Below, one piece after another: positions 16,151 to 21,038 of a DNA stretch of 64,000 nt. Origin of the DNA: Chitinophagaceae bacterium (GTDB lineage: Bacteria; Bacteroidota; Bacteroidia; Chitinophagales; Chitinophagaceae); contig JAMLGT010000006.1 in the NCBI GenBank assembly GCA_023957755.1, positions 124,001-188,000 of the forward strand. The letters run 5' to 3'. Below the pieces are notes generated by a model that saw nothing but the letters and a program-made list of their open reading frames with translations, searched no databases and was not told the origin of the DNA. Numbering within the stretch: the first letter of the stretch is position 1; the number at the start of each line of letters is the position of its first letter. A program made the position numbers and the translations under genes.

Positions 16151-16198
16151 ACCCATTGGATTTAGAATGTTTATCTTAAGCGTTTGGTAGCACCCGGC

Positions 16199-18808
16199 AT
16201 GGCAAAGAATGATACTCCCTTAATGAAGCAGCACAATGAGATCAAGGCGAAATATCCTGATGCCATACTGCTTTTTCGTGTAGGTGATTTTTATGAGACT
16301 TTTGGTGCGGATGCCATAATCGCTTCGCGGATTCTCGGTATCACGCTTACCAAAAGAAATAATGGCTCTGCTTCGGCTACCGAACTGGCTGGATTTCCGC
16401 ATCATGCACTGGATACCTATTTGCACAAACTGGTAAAAGCAGGCTATCGCGTGGCGATCTGCGACCAGCTCGAAGATCCTAAAACCGCAAAAGGCCTGGT
16501 GAAACGAGGAGTCACTGAAATGATTACCCCCGGCATTGCCACCAACGATCAGCTTCTGGAACACAATGACAATAACTTTCTTTGCGGCATCTTTCTCGAC
16601 GACACAACTAACGGGCTTGCCTTTCTGGATATTTCCACAGGCGAATTCTTTGTTGCCGAAGGCGATGATGAATATGCCGATAAGTTGTTGCAGAGTCTGC
16701 AGCCGGCAGAAGTAATTTTCCAGCGCAATAAACAGAAGTATTTCAAGAACAAATACGGAAACAATTTTTATACGTACGCACTCGATGAGTGGATCTTTGC
16801 AGAACAATACGGAAGAGATTCACTATTAAAGCACTTCGGTACACTCAACCTTAAAGGATTTGGAATCGAGGAGATGCGATCGGGTATCATTGCAGCAGGC
16901 GCTGTGCTACATTATCTGCGTGAGACAGCACATCCTAATCTTGCGCATATCACTACCATTCAGCGGATTGTTCGCGGAGAACATCTCTGGATGGACCGGT
17001 TTACTATCCGCAATCTGGAATTATTGCCTACAAGCGAGAGGCCGGAATCGCTGCTGAAAGTACTCGACAACACCGTCTCTCCTATGGGCGCACGCCTGAT
17101 GAAACGCTGGATGCTGATGCCTCTCACTGATCTCGCAAGAATCAACGAACGGCTCGATCTGACAGAGTTCCTGATCGTACAAACAGATCTCCGAAACAAC
17201 CTCAGCCAGCAGATTAAACAGTGTGGCGATATTGAACGGCTTGTAAGCAAAGTGCCGCTGAAGAAAATCAACCCGCGTGAAGTATTGCAAATAGCTAAGG
17301 GACTGCAACTGGTAGCAAAAATTAAAACAGAAATATCGACCGCCCCAAATGAATACCTGAAACGACTGGGCGACAGCCTTAATGAATGTAAATACCTGGC
17401 AGACAAAATTCATTCTGTCATTCTTCCCAACCCGCCTGCACTTGCAGCTAAAGGAAATATGATCGCCGACGGAGTGGATAAAGAGCTTGACGAATTGCGC
17501 GATATCGCACGGCATGGCAAAGATCACCTGGTTAAGATTCAGCAGAAAGAAACACTGGCTACGGGTATATCTTCTTTAAAAATCGGATTCAACAACGTAT
17601 TTGGCTACTACCTTGAAGTTACGAATACGCATAAGGATAAGGTACCTGAAAGCTGGATCAGGAAGCAGACCCTTACCAACGCAGAGAGATATATCACTCC
17701 GGAATTGAAGGAGTATGAGGAGAAAATTACGGGCGCAGAAGAGAAAATCCTGGCAATTGAGTTAAGGATTTTTGAAAGTCTGCTCAATGAACTTCAGGAC
17801 TACATCAGCCCAATGCAAATCAACGGCCATGTACTGGCGATTATCGATTGCATTTGCTGCTTTGCCAATAATGCTTTGCAATATCAGTATCGGAAACCGG
17901 AATTAAATGACGGGTATGAAATTCAATTGAAAGACAGCCGTCATCCGGTCATTGAAAGAAACCTGCCACCCGGCGAAGCTTTTGTGGCAAATGACCTCAC
18001 ACTGAATCCAGACTCCCAACAAATCATCATTCTTACGGGACCAAATATGAGTGGTAAGAGCGCACTGCTACGACAGACTGCACTCATTACCATCATGGCG
18101 CACATCGGGAGTTTTGTACCTGCAAAGGAAGCTATCATTCCACTAACCGACAAGGTGTTCACCCGGGTCGGAGCAAGCGATAACCTCAGCAGCGGCGAAA
18201 GTACTTTCATGGTCGAGATGAACGAGACAGCCAGCATCATCAATAACATTACCGGTCGCAGTCTGATTCTGCTCGATGAGATCGGACGAGGTACTTCCAC
18301 CTACGACGGTATTTCCATAGCATGGAGCATTGTAGAGTTTCTCCACAACTCACCTTACAAGCCTAAAACTCTTTTTGCCACTCACTATCATGAGTTGAAC
18401 GAACTGGAAAATAAACTGCCACGTGTAAAGAACTTCCACATCTCCAACAAAGAAGCCGGCAACCAGATTATCTTCCTGCGTAAGCTTGTGCCGGGAGGCA
18501 GCCTCCACAGTTTCGGTATCCATGTAGCGCGAATGGCCGGCATGCCCCCATCACTGATTAAAAGAGCTAATGAAATTCTAAGTCAGCTCGAAGATAAACA
18601 GGCAAGCCTTGATGACGATGAAAAGGCTACATCTATCAGTGACAAAGTCAAAGGCATCTCATCTTCTCAGATGCAGCTTAGTATCTTTGACATCCATTCC
18701 CAAACCTTTGAAGAAATCCGACAGATGCTGCACGAGGTGGATATTAACAGGCTTACTCCTGTAGAGGCATTATTAAAATTGCAGGAAATAAAGAATAAGA
18801 TACATTAA
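16199..18808 (+). CDS. mutS: DNA mismatch repair protein MutS
   Basis: 869 residues from ATG 16199 (MAKNDTPLMKQH). A TTG five codons earlier is possible but less likely. Recognises mismatches and starts repair with MutL. The mismatch-probing Phe-x-Glu lies in VGDFYETFG (about residue 35). The ATPase domain shows Walker A GPNMSGKSALLRQ near 615, the signature SSGESTFMVEM, Walker B LILLDEIGRGTSTYDG and FATHYHEL. Length is normal for the family. It is transcribed alone and away from the SpoU gene. Confidence 0.97.
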   Translation: MAKNDTPLMKQHNEIKAKYPDAILLFRVGDFYETFGADAIIASRILGITLTKRNNGSASATELAGFPHHALDTYLHKLVKAGYRVAICDQLEDPKTAKGLVKRGVTEMITPGIATNDQLLEHNDNNFLCGIFLDDTTNGLAFLDISTGEFFVAEGDDEYADKLLQSLQPAEVIFQRNKQKYFKNKYGNNFYTYALDEWIFAEQYGRDSLLKHFGTLNLKGFGIEEMRSGIIAAGAVLHYLRETAHPNLAHITTIQRIVRGEHLWMDRFTIRNLELLPTSERPESLLKVLDNTVSPMGARLMKRWMLMPLTDLARINERLDLTEFLIVQTDLRNNLSQQIKQCGDIERLVSKVPLKKINPREVLQIAKGLQLVAKIKTEISTAPNEYLKRLGDSLNECKYLADKIHSVILPNPPALAAKGNMIADGVDKELDELRDIARHGKDHLVKIQQKETLATGISSLKIGFNNVFGYYLEVTNTHKDKVPESWIRKQTLTNAERYITPELKEYEEKITGAEEKILAIELRIFESLLNELQDYISPMQINGHVLAIIDCICCFANNALQYQYRKPELNDGYEIQLKDSRHPVIERNLPPGEAFVANDLTLNPDSQQIIILTGPNMSGKSALLRQTALITIMAHIGSFVPAKEAIIPLTDKVFTRVGASDNLSSGESTFMVEMNETASIINNITGRSLILLDEIGRGTSTYDGISIAWSIVEFLHNSPYKPKTLFATHYHELNELENKLPRVKNFHISNKEAGNQIIFLRKLVPGGSLHSFGIHVARMAGMPPSLIKRANEILSQLEDKQASLDDDEKATSISDKVKGISSSQMQLSIFDIHSQTFEEIRQMLHEVDINRLTPVEALLKLQEIKNKIH

Positions 18809-19179
18809 CAGATAGTGAGCGGCTGAAACAAAAGTACTTTGGTTATTCGTAATTCATATCACCACACACGCTACTTCTCCACCCTTAGCGAATCGTCTGT
18901 TCCAAAATTCTTGTAAAATCCAGCCATGGATAATCAATTGGTGATATCAAATCTTTGATAATTTGACGGCACTAATCGACTCAACCTTCTTTTTGGTGTC
19001 ATTCCTTTTTTCTTTTGCCCTGATAAAAAAGAAACAATCCCGGTGCTGCAGGAACAAGGTTGCCATCGTAGGGGCTAGGATTCGCTGGACTAAGGTTCTA
19101 AATTTATTACCCTGCCCTTCAGGGCAGGATTACGAAAGTCTTACTCAATAAGGGTTTTAGCTGTACTTCACTAAGAATA
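18809..19179. other. Gene-free spacer with palindromic remnants
   Basis: No supported gene. It holds a T-rich/A-rich inverted repeat (CTTTTTT at 19005-19011 with AAAAAAG at 19025-19031). A perfect 7-bp hairpin CCTGCCC-TTCA-GGGCAGG lies at 19111-19128, with no T-run after it. These look like intergenic repeat debris upstream of the Y1 transposase element. Confidence 0.55.
19111..19128. repeat. Perfect GC-rich hairpin CCTGCCC-TTCA-GGGCAGG
   Basis: Seven-base-pair stem with a four-base loop in an AT-rich spacer. It has no poly-T tail, so it is not a standard terminator. It resembles a REP-type palindrome of a different family from the GGCTAAAGCC elements beside it. Confidence 0.6.
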
Positions 19180-19428
19180 ATGTGGCTAAAGCCGTAAGGC
19201 TTTAATTCTTATTCCGTTGGCTAAAGCCAACGATAATAATTGTCCGTTAAAGCTCTTTAAACACAGAACTACTTCAGGCAAAAAGAGCAATTATGGAGGG
19301 AAGAGACAATACGCAATTTGAAAATTCTGACTTAGGAAAAAGCAAACCGTAGCAAACCTCTCAGAGCCTTTTACAGTTGGCTTTAGCCAATTGAAAAGAG
19401 AGGCTACCTACTAAGGCTTTAGCCGCAT
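19180..19428 (+). repeat. Structured palindromic element, copy A
   Basis: 249 bp. Terminal inverted repeats are ATGTGGCTAAAGCC and GGCTTTAGCCGCAT (13 of 14 pair). Internal hairpins are CGTTGGC-TAAA-GCCAACG at 19215-19232, GCTCTTT/AAAGAGC (19252-19258 with 19282-19288, 23-nt loop) and CAGTTGGC-TTTA-GCCAATTG at 19374-19393. The last ~127 bp differ from copy B at only about five positions by eye; the first half is more diverged. Confidence 0.85.
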
Positions 19429-19494
19429 TTCTTCCCTAGAAAAAGCTACTATTAAAAATTCTGTAATTTCATTTCCAGCCAAAAAACAGTAATT

Positions 19495-19938
19495 ATGAGT
19501 TGGGTAAGAATTTGGGTTCACCTGGTTTTCACAACTAAAAACAGAAAGCCTTTTCTTAACTCAAAAGAATTACGCGCTGAAGTATTTCAGCATATAAAAG
19601 AAAATGCTAAGCAGAAAGACTTATGGCTTGATAGTATTAATGGATACCAGGAGCATGTGCATTGCCTTATTTCACTAGGACGAACACAAACTATCAGCCA
19701 GGTGGGGCAGCTTATTAAAGGCGAGTCTTCACGTTGGATCAACAAATCCGGGTTAATAAAGTCCCCATTTAATTGGCAGGATGATTTCTGGGCTGTGAGT
19801 GTGAGCGAAAGCCATTTGAATGCGCTTAGAAAGTATATCCAAAATCAGGAGAAACATCATAAGAAGACAACTTTTAATGAAGAGGTAGATTTGTTTATAA
19901 AAAAATATGGATGGGAAATTATTAAACAGGGTGACTGA
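19495..19938 (+). CDS. Y1 (HUH) single-strand transposase, RAYT/IS200-like
   Basis: 147 residues, full length for the family. The HUH metal-binding pair is HVH at residues 54-56 (GYQEHVHCLISL). The catalytic tyrosine is Tyr114 in LRKYIQNQEKHHKK. The segment WQDDFWAVSVSES before it is typical of the Bacteroidota branch of Y1 transposases. Such enzymes nick and join single-stranded DNA at hairpins. No accessory tnpB gene is present. The TGA stop shares its last base with the first base of repeat copy B, so gene and element are physically joined. The frame is intact, so it may be active. Confidence 0.9.
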   Translation: MSWVRIWVHLVFTTKNRKPFLNSKELRAEVFQHIKENAKQKDLWLDSINGYQEHVHCLISLGRTQTISQVGQLIKGESSRWINKSGLIKSPFNWQDDFWAVSVSESHLNALRKYIQNQEKHHKKTTFNEEVDLFIKKYGWEIIKQGD

Positions 19939-20187
19939 TGCGGCTAAAGCCGTAACTATTTTATTGCAGAGCCCGTTGACTAAAGTCAACGATAATAATA
20001 ACTAGTTAATGCACTTTAAACACAAAACCACTTCAGGCAAAAAGTGCAGTTGCGGCGGGAAGAGACATTACGCAATTTGAAAATTCTGACTTAGGAAAAA
20101 GCAAACCGTAGCAAACCTCTTAGAGCCTTTTACCGTTGGCTTTAGCCAACTGAAAGGAGAGGCTACCTACTAAGGCTTTAGCCGCAT
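19938..20187 (+). repeat. Structured palindromic element, copy B
   Basis: 250 bp, direct orientation relative to copy A. Terminal repeats ATGCGGCTAAAGCC and GGCTTTAGCCGCAT pair perfectly. Hairpins are CGTTGAC-TAAA-GTCAACG at 19974-19991, GCACTTT/AAAGTGC (20011-20017 with 20041-20047, 23-nt loop) and GTTGGC-TTTA-GCCAAC at 20135-20150. Two of these stems differ from copy A by paired, compensatory changes. Confidence 0.85.
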
Positions 20188-20318
20188 CTTTAACAATTTA
20201 ACCAGATGGCGATGATTTTTTATTTTCCCCGCCCAGGGTGAAATTGCAGGCCACAGCCGATCAATTTGATTTGCTCTTTTACCGCACTTCAGCAGACAAG
20301 CCAGCACAATTCATACTA

Positions 20319-21038
20319 TCACACATACTCCACTTCTTCACTTTGCAACAGTGGCTTTCCATTGAGCTTGCGAATAATATTAGCAACTGTCAGTACATCC
20401 TTCTGGCAATACACGGCAATTCGCTTCAGGTCTTTATCCTTCCAGAATATTTCTCCCACCATACTGCCGTCAATGTCATCTTTCGGTGAAGGAATGCCCA
20501 ATGCGGCTGCCAGCAACTCAAGTGATATATAACTCTTAAAGTCGCCAAAGCGCCAGAACTGCATGGTATCTACAAGTAAAATATCCCACGGCTTTTTGTC
20601 ATAAAACCGCATAGACTCCGGCAACTCGAGTCCATTAATAAGGATTCTTCTCGAGAGATAGGGAATATCGAATTCACGGATATTATGCCCGGCAAAAGCC
20701 CACCCGCGGTGGTGTTTTTCAAATTGCTTCAGGTCGTCGCAAAACTCCTGCAGGAGGGCTTTCTCATCTTCTTTTGCGATAGACTTAATCCTCAGTTTGC
20801 GCTCACTGCCTGAGGCTCTGTAATAACCAAAACTTATACATACCACTCTCCCAAATTCAGCAAAGAGTGCTGCCTTGTCATGGTAATGGCTCTCCAGTGT
20901 GGCATCATCTGTGATTGTCTTTCCGGCTTTCTTATTCCAGAGTGCCTGCCAGTCTTCGGACAGTTCCTCAAAATTTGCCTTTCCTGACGCTGTTTCAATA
21001 TCCATGAAAATCAGGCTACCTGTTTCTATTATTGCCAT
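20319..21038 (-). CDS. DnaQ-like 3'-5' exonuclease (PolB exonuclease-2 type)
   Basis: 239 residues. The RNase H-fold DEDD exonuclease pattern is visible: Exo I LIFMDIETA (DxE), Exo II FAGHNIREFDIPYL (the N-x-x-x-FD of the PolB-like group), and a late Asp in AVYCQKDVLTVANI (Exo III, YxxxD type). It resembles stand-alone predicted exonucleases related to the proofreading domain of family B polymerases. It probably trims DNA or RNA ends in the cytoplasm, with unknown partner. It lies 58 bp downstream of the glycosidase cluster but is probably independent of it. Confidence 0.85.
   Translation of the reverse strand: MAIIETGSLIFMDIETASGKANFEELSEDWQALWNKKAGKTITDDATLESHYHDKAALFAEFGRVVCISFGYYRASGSERKLRIKSIAKEDEKALLQEFCDDLKQFEKHHRGWAFAGHNIREFDIPYLSRRILINGLELPESMRFYDKKPWDILLVDTMQFWRFGDFKSYISLELLAAALGIPSPKDDIDGSMVGEIFWKDKDLKRIAVYCQKDVLTVANIIRKLNGKPLLQSEEVEYV

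Follow-up and report, generated by a model that had tools for sequence, protein, structure and literature searches.

A probable REPIN-like repeat family associated with a single-copy Y1 transposase gene in a Chitinophagaceae bacterium

Organization of the tnpA locus

The window analysed here is a 64,000-nucleotide stretch (positions 124001-188000 of contig 32) from the 3.67 Mb genome of a Chitinophagaceae bacterium, hereafter the host. Within it, a putative mutS gene and an exonuclease-like gene bracket a Y1 transposase gene, tnpA, and the two structured units that flank it, A and B (Table 1). The first-pass annotation had described these units as two direct copies of 249 and 250 bp around an intact HUH/Y1 gene, and both the coordinates and the Pfam match agree with that description. 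The direct repeats (19175-19428 versus 19933-20187) are 88% identical without gaps over a 228-nt core. Copy B does begin, as had been noted, on the final base of the tnpA stop codon: the TGA occupies 19936-19938, and its A is the first base of unit B. The annotation needs extension in one respect: both units are internal to a larger repeat, which adds a left part, a lead and a tail common to other long copies, so that the 250-bp unit does not mark the outer boundary of the repeat in this genome. Similarity between this longer repeat and the host's other long copies begins at 18885-18911 and ends near 20300, and its outer ends are degenerate inverted repeats with the family consensus CGACTTGTCCGGT and ACGGACAAGTCGG.

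Table 1. Features of the tnpA locus, in window coordinates. S is a separate repeat element of the host that is described in the text.
Feature	Position	Strand	Remarks
Putative mutS	16184-18808		Named from translation
Longer repeat	18889-20303 (ends approximate)	+	Contains lead, A, tnpA, B and tail; from similarity to the genome's other long copies
Lead segment	19071-19179	+	Palindrome CCCTGCCCTTCAGGGCAGG, right hairpin GGGTTTTAGCTG; akin to left part of S
Unit A (249 bp)	19180-19428	+	
Unit A, ATGT foot	19180-19183		
Unit A, hairpins	19184-19193, 19216-19231, 19376-19391, 19415-19424		
Unit A, GCAT end	19425-19428		
tnpA	19495-19938	+	147 aa, HUH/Y1 transposase, subclass 1.2 type
tnpA, HVH codons	19654-19662		
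tnpA, catalytic Tyr114 codon	19834-19836		
Unit B (250 bp)	19938-20187	+	
Unit B, ATGC foot	19938-19941		
Unit B, hairpins	19942-19951, 19975-19990 (GTTGACTAAAGTCAAC), 20135-20150, 20174-20183		
Unit B, GCAT end	20184-20187		
Tail	20188-20303	+	Occurs likewise in further long copies and in part of the S copies
Putative exonuclease-like gene	20319-21038	Opposite to tnpA	Named from translation

Structure of the units

The 14-bp terminal inverted repeats reported previously are exact in unit B, where ATGCGGCTAAAGCC (from 19938) and GGCTTTAGCCGCAT (to 20187) match in inverted orientation at 14 of 14 positions; in unit A the match between ATGTGGCTAAAGCC (from 19180) and GGCTTTAGCCGCAT (to 19428) falls one short, at 13 of 14. 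Four self-complementary hairpins are found in each unit, ordered as a nested inverted series (GGCTAAAGCC, GTTGGCTAAAGCCAAC, GTTGGCTTTAGCCAAC and GGCTTTAGCC), which bears out the earlier observation of internal hairpins built from nested inverted modules. Hairpin 2 of unit B is a compensated variant, GTTGACTAAAGTCAAC, that differs by a paired change. Both units folded as DNA (z = -3.64 for unit A and -3.57 for unit B), and unit A folded as RNA (z = -5.71), are more stable than their shuffled counterparts, none of 200 shuffles being as stable in any of these comparisons.

Among 34 distinct unit copies from the host and a relative that is approximately 91% identical to it (G006), variation in the stems is roughly a quarter of that elsewhere (0.05 versus 0.20). 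The terminal hairpin carries a paired change, from GGCT..AGCC to GACT..AGTC, in eight units of the host and G006 set. We counted 11 double-change cells at paired positions, compared to 0-8 for slid partners, the control used. This modest covariation supports selection on unit structure, short of proof.

A strong RNA fold and conserved stems are also what one could expect if the units were regulatory or terminator structures, of RNA or DNA, that had been spread by recombination, with the adjacency to tnpA reflecting autoregulation. We regard this explanation as very improbable, given that an Rfam search returned no family over its cutoff, that solo copies in another genome, G044, lie in unrelated flanks, and that the orientation of genes around copies of the S element has no clear bias.

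Probable assignment of the transposase to subclass 1.2

The tnpA open reading frame is intact and matches the Pfam family Y1_Tnp (PF01797, E = 4.7e-25). The suggestion that its product is RAYT-like did not hold at the level of protein family: TnpA scores 35.5 bits against the NCBIfam RAYT model, below the cutoff of 80, and passes the IS200/IS605 model with 60 bits against a cutoff of 55. Residues H54, H56, Y114, Q118 and H122 are invariant in 30 relatives, and H121 and Q95 are nearly so. The predicted structure (mean pLDDT 90.5) has the DNA-bound TnpA proteins of ISDra2 and IS608 as its closest folds.

Subclass 1.2 of the TnpA-Y1 proteins, as described by Quentin (2018), comprises low-copy proteins of approximately 148 aa from Bacteroidota that lie near IS200 TnpA and carry Y---Q--HH and WQ motifs; no associated REPs have been reported for it, and its members are generally without typical IS200 end structures (PMC6006769). 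The host protein has 147 aa, the Y...Q..HH signature (Y...NQ..HH in this case) and the WQ motif. A survey of 395 Bacteroidota genomes detected its clade in 72, of which 63 have one match, and its named relatives come from Chitinophagaceae, Bacteroidales, Flavobacteriales and similar groups. On the basis of signature motif, size and copy number, we provisionally assign TnpA to subclass 1.2. The host itself has one copy of this tnpA clade and two distant Y1 paralogues (29-33% identity).

The family and fold of TnpA, together with the presence of hairpins on both sides of its gene, would suit an ordinary IS200/IS605-type insertion sequence in which A and B are the left and right ends and A-tnpA-B is mobile as a whole. 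Such an element would not be expected to have a single tnpA copy in the host, a single match in most positive genomes and approximately 20 units that lie elsewhere without the gene, nor to be flanked by near-identical direct repeats that are each complete with both inverted ends. We therefore consider an ordinary insertion sequence highly unlikely.

Copies of the unit and of a MITE in the host genome

The host genome contains approximately 20 further matches to the unit that have no tnpA beside them, several of which are tandem pairs spaced approximately 8-14 bp apart. These copies are old, at approximately 72-88% identity. Two loci common to the host and G006 have unequal unit counts (1 versus 2 and 1 versus 3); these are whole-unit gains or losses, for which ordinary recombination between units would suffice as a mechanism. 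We found no empty site, of either a unit or tnpA, in the genomes compared. In G006 one contig breaks off within mutS and another where unit B ends, so the tnpA locus of this relative falls in an assembly gap. One 3782-bp contig of G006 (G006:C5, L153) is 99.9% identical to host contig G000:C23 (L021), compared to approximately 87-95% for other shared loci, and may reflect assembly cross-contamination or recent transfer.

The host also carries S, a separate element of approximately 150 bp with ends TATTRTTGTCCGRTTAA and some 40 matches (for example L135, L140, L142, L145 and L149, on C1, C11, C2, C9 and C30, respectively). Copies of S have terminal inverted repeats and A/T-rich flanking direct repeats of approximately 9 bp. 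For the 24 copies measured, the mean longest match shared by the two flanks is 7.96, compared to 5.75 for shuffled pairings, of which 0 of 2000 reach 7.96. By its inverted ends and its target-site duplication (TSD) of fixed length, S is a DDE-type MITE, a classification that was measured on S copies. The lead and tail of the long element are akin to S. Hairpins of the GGCTWWAGCC type occur inside S as well.

Y1 enzymes of the IS200/IS605 type leave no target-site duplication. Given the 9-bp duplications of S, the many short copies in the host should not be attributed to the Y1 gene. Furthermore, since most host units sit between the lead and tail of longer elements that have inverted ends and are akin to S, part of the dispersal of the units in the host was probably not carried out by the Y1 enzyme.

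These same observations, along with the TTGTCCG-type inverted ends of the long elements, could be taken to mean that the units are passengers of a DDE-type MITE, with the long element and S moving by terminal inverted repeats and TSD and the Y1 gene having been captured in one copy. We think this unlikely. The end motif of the units tracks the gene across genomes of the phylum, and the solo units of G044 have no TSD and differ in their flanks. S resembles known TIR/TSD MITEs in its inverted ends and 9-bp duplications; the units show no TSD in G044, and they follow a Y1 gene rather than a DDE gene.

An end motif accompanies tnpA in other genomes

The motif GGCTNNAGCC flanks most of the genes among the 25 closest relatives of tnpA (55-76% identity). 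Because the motif was chosen on these relatives, we tested it on a second, separately obtained set of loci that came from searching 395 genomes of the phylum. Removal of two loci identical to earlier ones left 27, including one pair (L234 and L236) that is more than 90% identical. GGCTWWAGCC occurs no more than 300 bp from the gene in 26 of these 27 independent loci, which come from Bacteroidota and neighbouring phyla. There are 89 motifs near the gene (5.4 per kb) and 2 in the 40.6 kb further out (0.05 per kb), a difference of approximately 100-fold. At loci of more distant Y1 genes, the end motif was found in 0 of 34.

The orientation of the motif is also consistent. The nearest upstream motif is GGCTTTAGCC in 42 of 47 loci, the nearest downstream motif is GGCTAAAGCC in 32 of 40, and the order seen in the window (> > < < tnpA > > < <) is seen again in a distant genome (L240). 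At 35 of 56 loci the gene lies between direct repeats, which control segments lack. While the inner hairpins vary between species, the end motif stays. A search of the open literature found no published link between GGCTAAAGCC repeats and a transposase, the matches appearing incidental by title.

Solo units in genomes that carry the gene

We then counted an extended end pattern, ATGKGGCTRAAGCC, across whole genomes. The host has 56 matches, G044 (the genome of L036) has 40, and G043, G048, G049 and G057 have 11-17. Gillisia limnaea DSM 15749, which has a relative of TnpA (L034), carries arrays of units near 338, 353 and 1402 kb of its contig 2. Genomes with the clade other than the host range from 0 to 40, compared to 0-2 in 23 genomes without it (P ~1e-6, or 3e-5 if two ambiguous genomes count as being without the gene), with the qualification that the counts include copies beside the gene and that the genomes are non-independent. 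Six genomes with a more divergent tnpA (44-64%) have 0-1 matches. G006 and G039 have motif copies and no detected gene of the clade; the G006 locus lies at contig ends, and the G039 assembly is 57% complete.

In G044, a distant genome, we identified fourteen solo units of 117-311 bp, measured end to end, that start with ATGK and finish with MCAT. They are bounded by ATGTGGCTAAAGCC...GGCTTTAGCCACAT, scattered, and set in differing flanks. No TSD was detected at these units, the flank match being 3.86 compared to 3.98 for shuffled pairings. Some copies are alike for 10-40 bp outside their presumed ends, so the true border of the unit may fall slightly further out. At L203, L207-L210 and L212-L215 the right flank is TAAAT in most copies and the left flank is loosely A/T-rich, an asymmetry that recalls the element-side and target-side cleavage sites of IS200/IS605. 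Short tandem repeats occur inside the units at L209 (317-628), L211 (354-628) and L222, for example GCTAAAGCTGACTGCAATAGATTTGCC repeated approximately seven times, suggesting that unit length grows through inner duplication.

The search for solo copies yielded them in other genomes with the gene. With the unit multicopy in the host, the motif beside the gene phylum-wide and solo copies present in gene-carrying genomes, we found neither confinement of the element to this locus nor a lack of connection between solo copies and the transposase. The first-pass proposal that the element is mobilized by this transposase stands in part: multicopy occurrence, the motif-gene link and the solo units favour it, and the MITE probably explains part of the dispersal in the host.

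A REPIN-like interpretation and its relation to known systems

The architecture of a REPIN, in which two inverted hairpins are separated by a spacer in dispersed, multicopy units, is present in the G044 solo units and in the host arrays. Given that one transposase clade is tied to one inverted end motif, and given the solo units, the arrays and the single-copy gene, we read A and B as probable REPIN-like repeats whose end hairpins are the likely DNA substrate of the single-copy subclass 1.2 TnpA. We infer that TnpA binds and cuts the units, that a ssDNA intermediate is involved, and that TnpA is what moves them. The two inverted ends of a unit share one small hairpin, which carries a foot on its 5' side (ATGT/ATGG followed by GGCT-loop-AGCC). 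When the strand becomes single-stranded, for example in replication, a TnpA dimer would bind both end hairpins, cut near the foot by means of Tyr114 and the HUH metal site, and then join the ends. The unit would insert at an A/T-rich site or beside another unit without a TSD, and tandem arrays could lengthen or shorten through TnpA action or ordinary recombination.

In several respects this arrangement resembles REPIN-RAYT systems (class 2 TnpA-REP), which also have a single-copy Y1 gene flanked by repeats and without sign of moving, dispersed two-hairpin units with a foot, and tandem clusters (PMC3116915, PMC6006769, PMC8266576). It differs in its class 1 signature (Y...Q..HH rather than Y...NP), in its foot (ATGT/ATGG rather than GTAG/GTGG), and in its units, which measure 117-311 bp, have extra inner hairpins and end in a hairpin with a 4-bp stem. 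A canonical RAYT is ruled out by the protein family and by the foot, which is ATGT, ATGG or ATGC. TnpA shares its fold and catalytic residues with IS200/IS605 elements (IS608, ISDra2), which likewise have hairpins on either side of the gene; unlike these elements, the present system has no multicopy gene, no adjoining tnpB, and repeats that are direct rather than end-specific. The copy number and the direct-repeat layout led us to reject a simple IS200 element. TIRYTs likewise have a Y1 gene between longer repeats, and these repeats can be present at other genomic sites as well, but TIRYTs are mostly of class 2.1, with inverted flanking repeats that often contain GGGG[AT][CG]A[CG] (PMC3733652). 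Integron attC sites were considered and provisionally set aside, as the expected boxes appear to be lacking.

In contrast to what has been reported for subclass 1.2, in which no associated repeats were described (PMC6006769), such repeats are the rule in the clade studied here. We lean, by slightly better than even chances, towards a second and independently evolved REPIN-like system, in which a TnpA of the IS200 branch serves multi-hairpin units, dispersed and in tandem arrays, in trans, without the proliferation typical of insertion sequences, and with an arrangement that is maintained in Bacteroidota and in neighbouring phyla. If so, a REP/RAYT-like mode of existence would have evolved in two branches, class 2 and IS200. 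Subclass 1.2 has so far been without a known substrate or role, and the end motif (ATGK followed by GGCTRAAGCC) makes the clade experimentally tractable and bears on how insertion sequences become single-copy genes that maintain small repeats.

Structured repeats of other sequence, direct or inverted, are frequently found beside the genes of a second Y1 clade, which is 29-38% identical and also has the Y...Q..HH signature. The loci of this clade include L010 (G000:C4:3451), where GACCCTTTCTGGGTC arrays are found, L011 (G000:C33:112014), L058-L061, L102 and L112.
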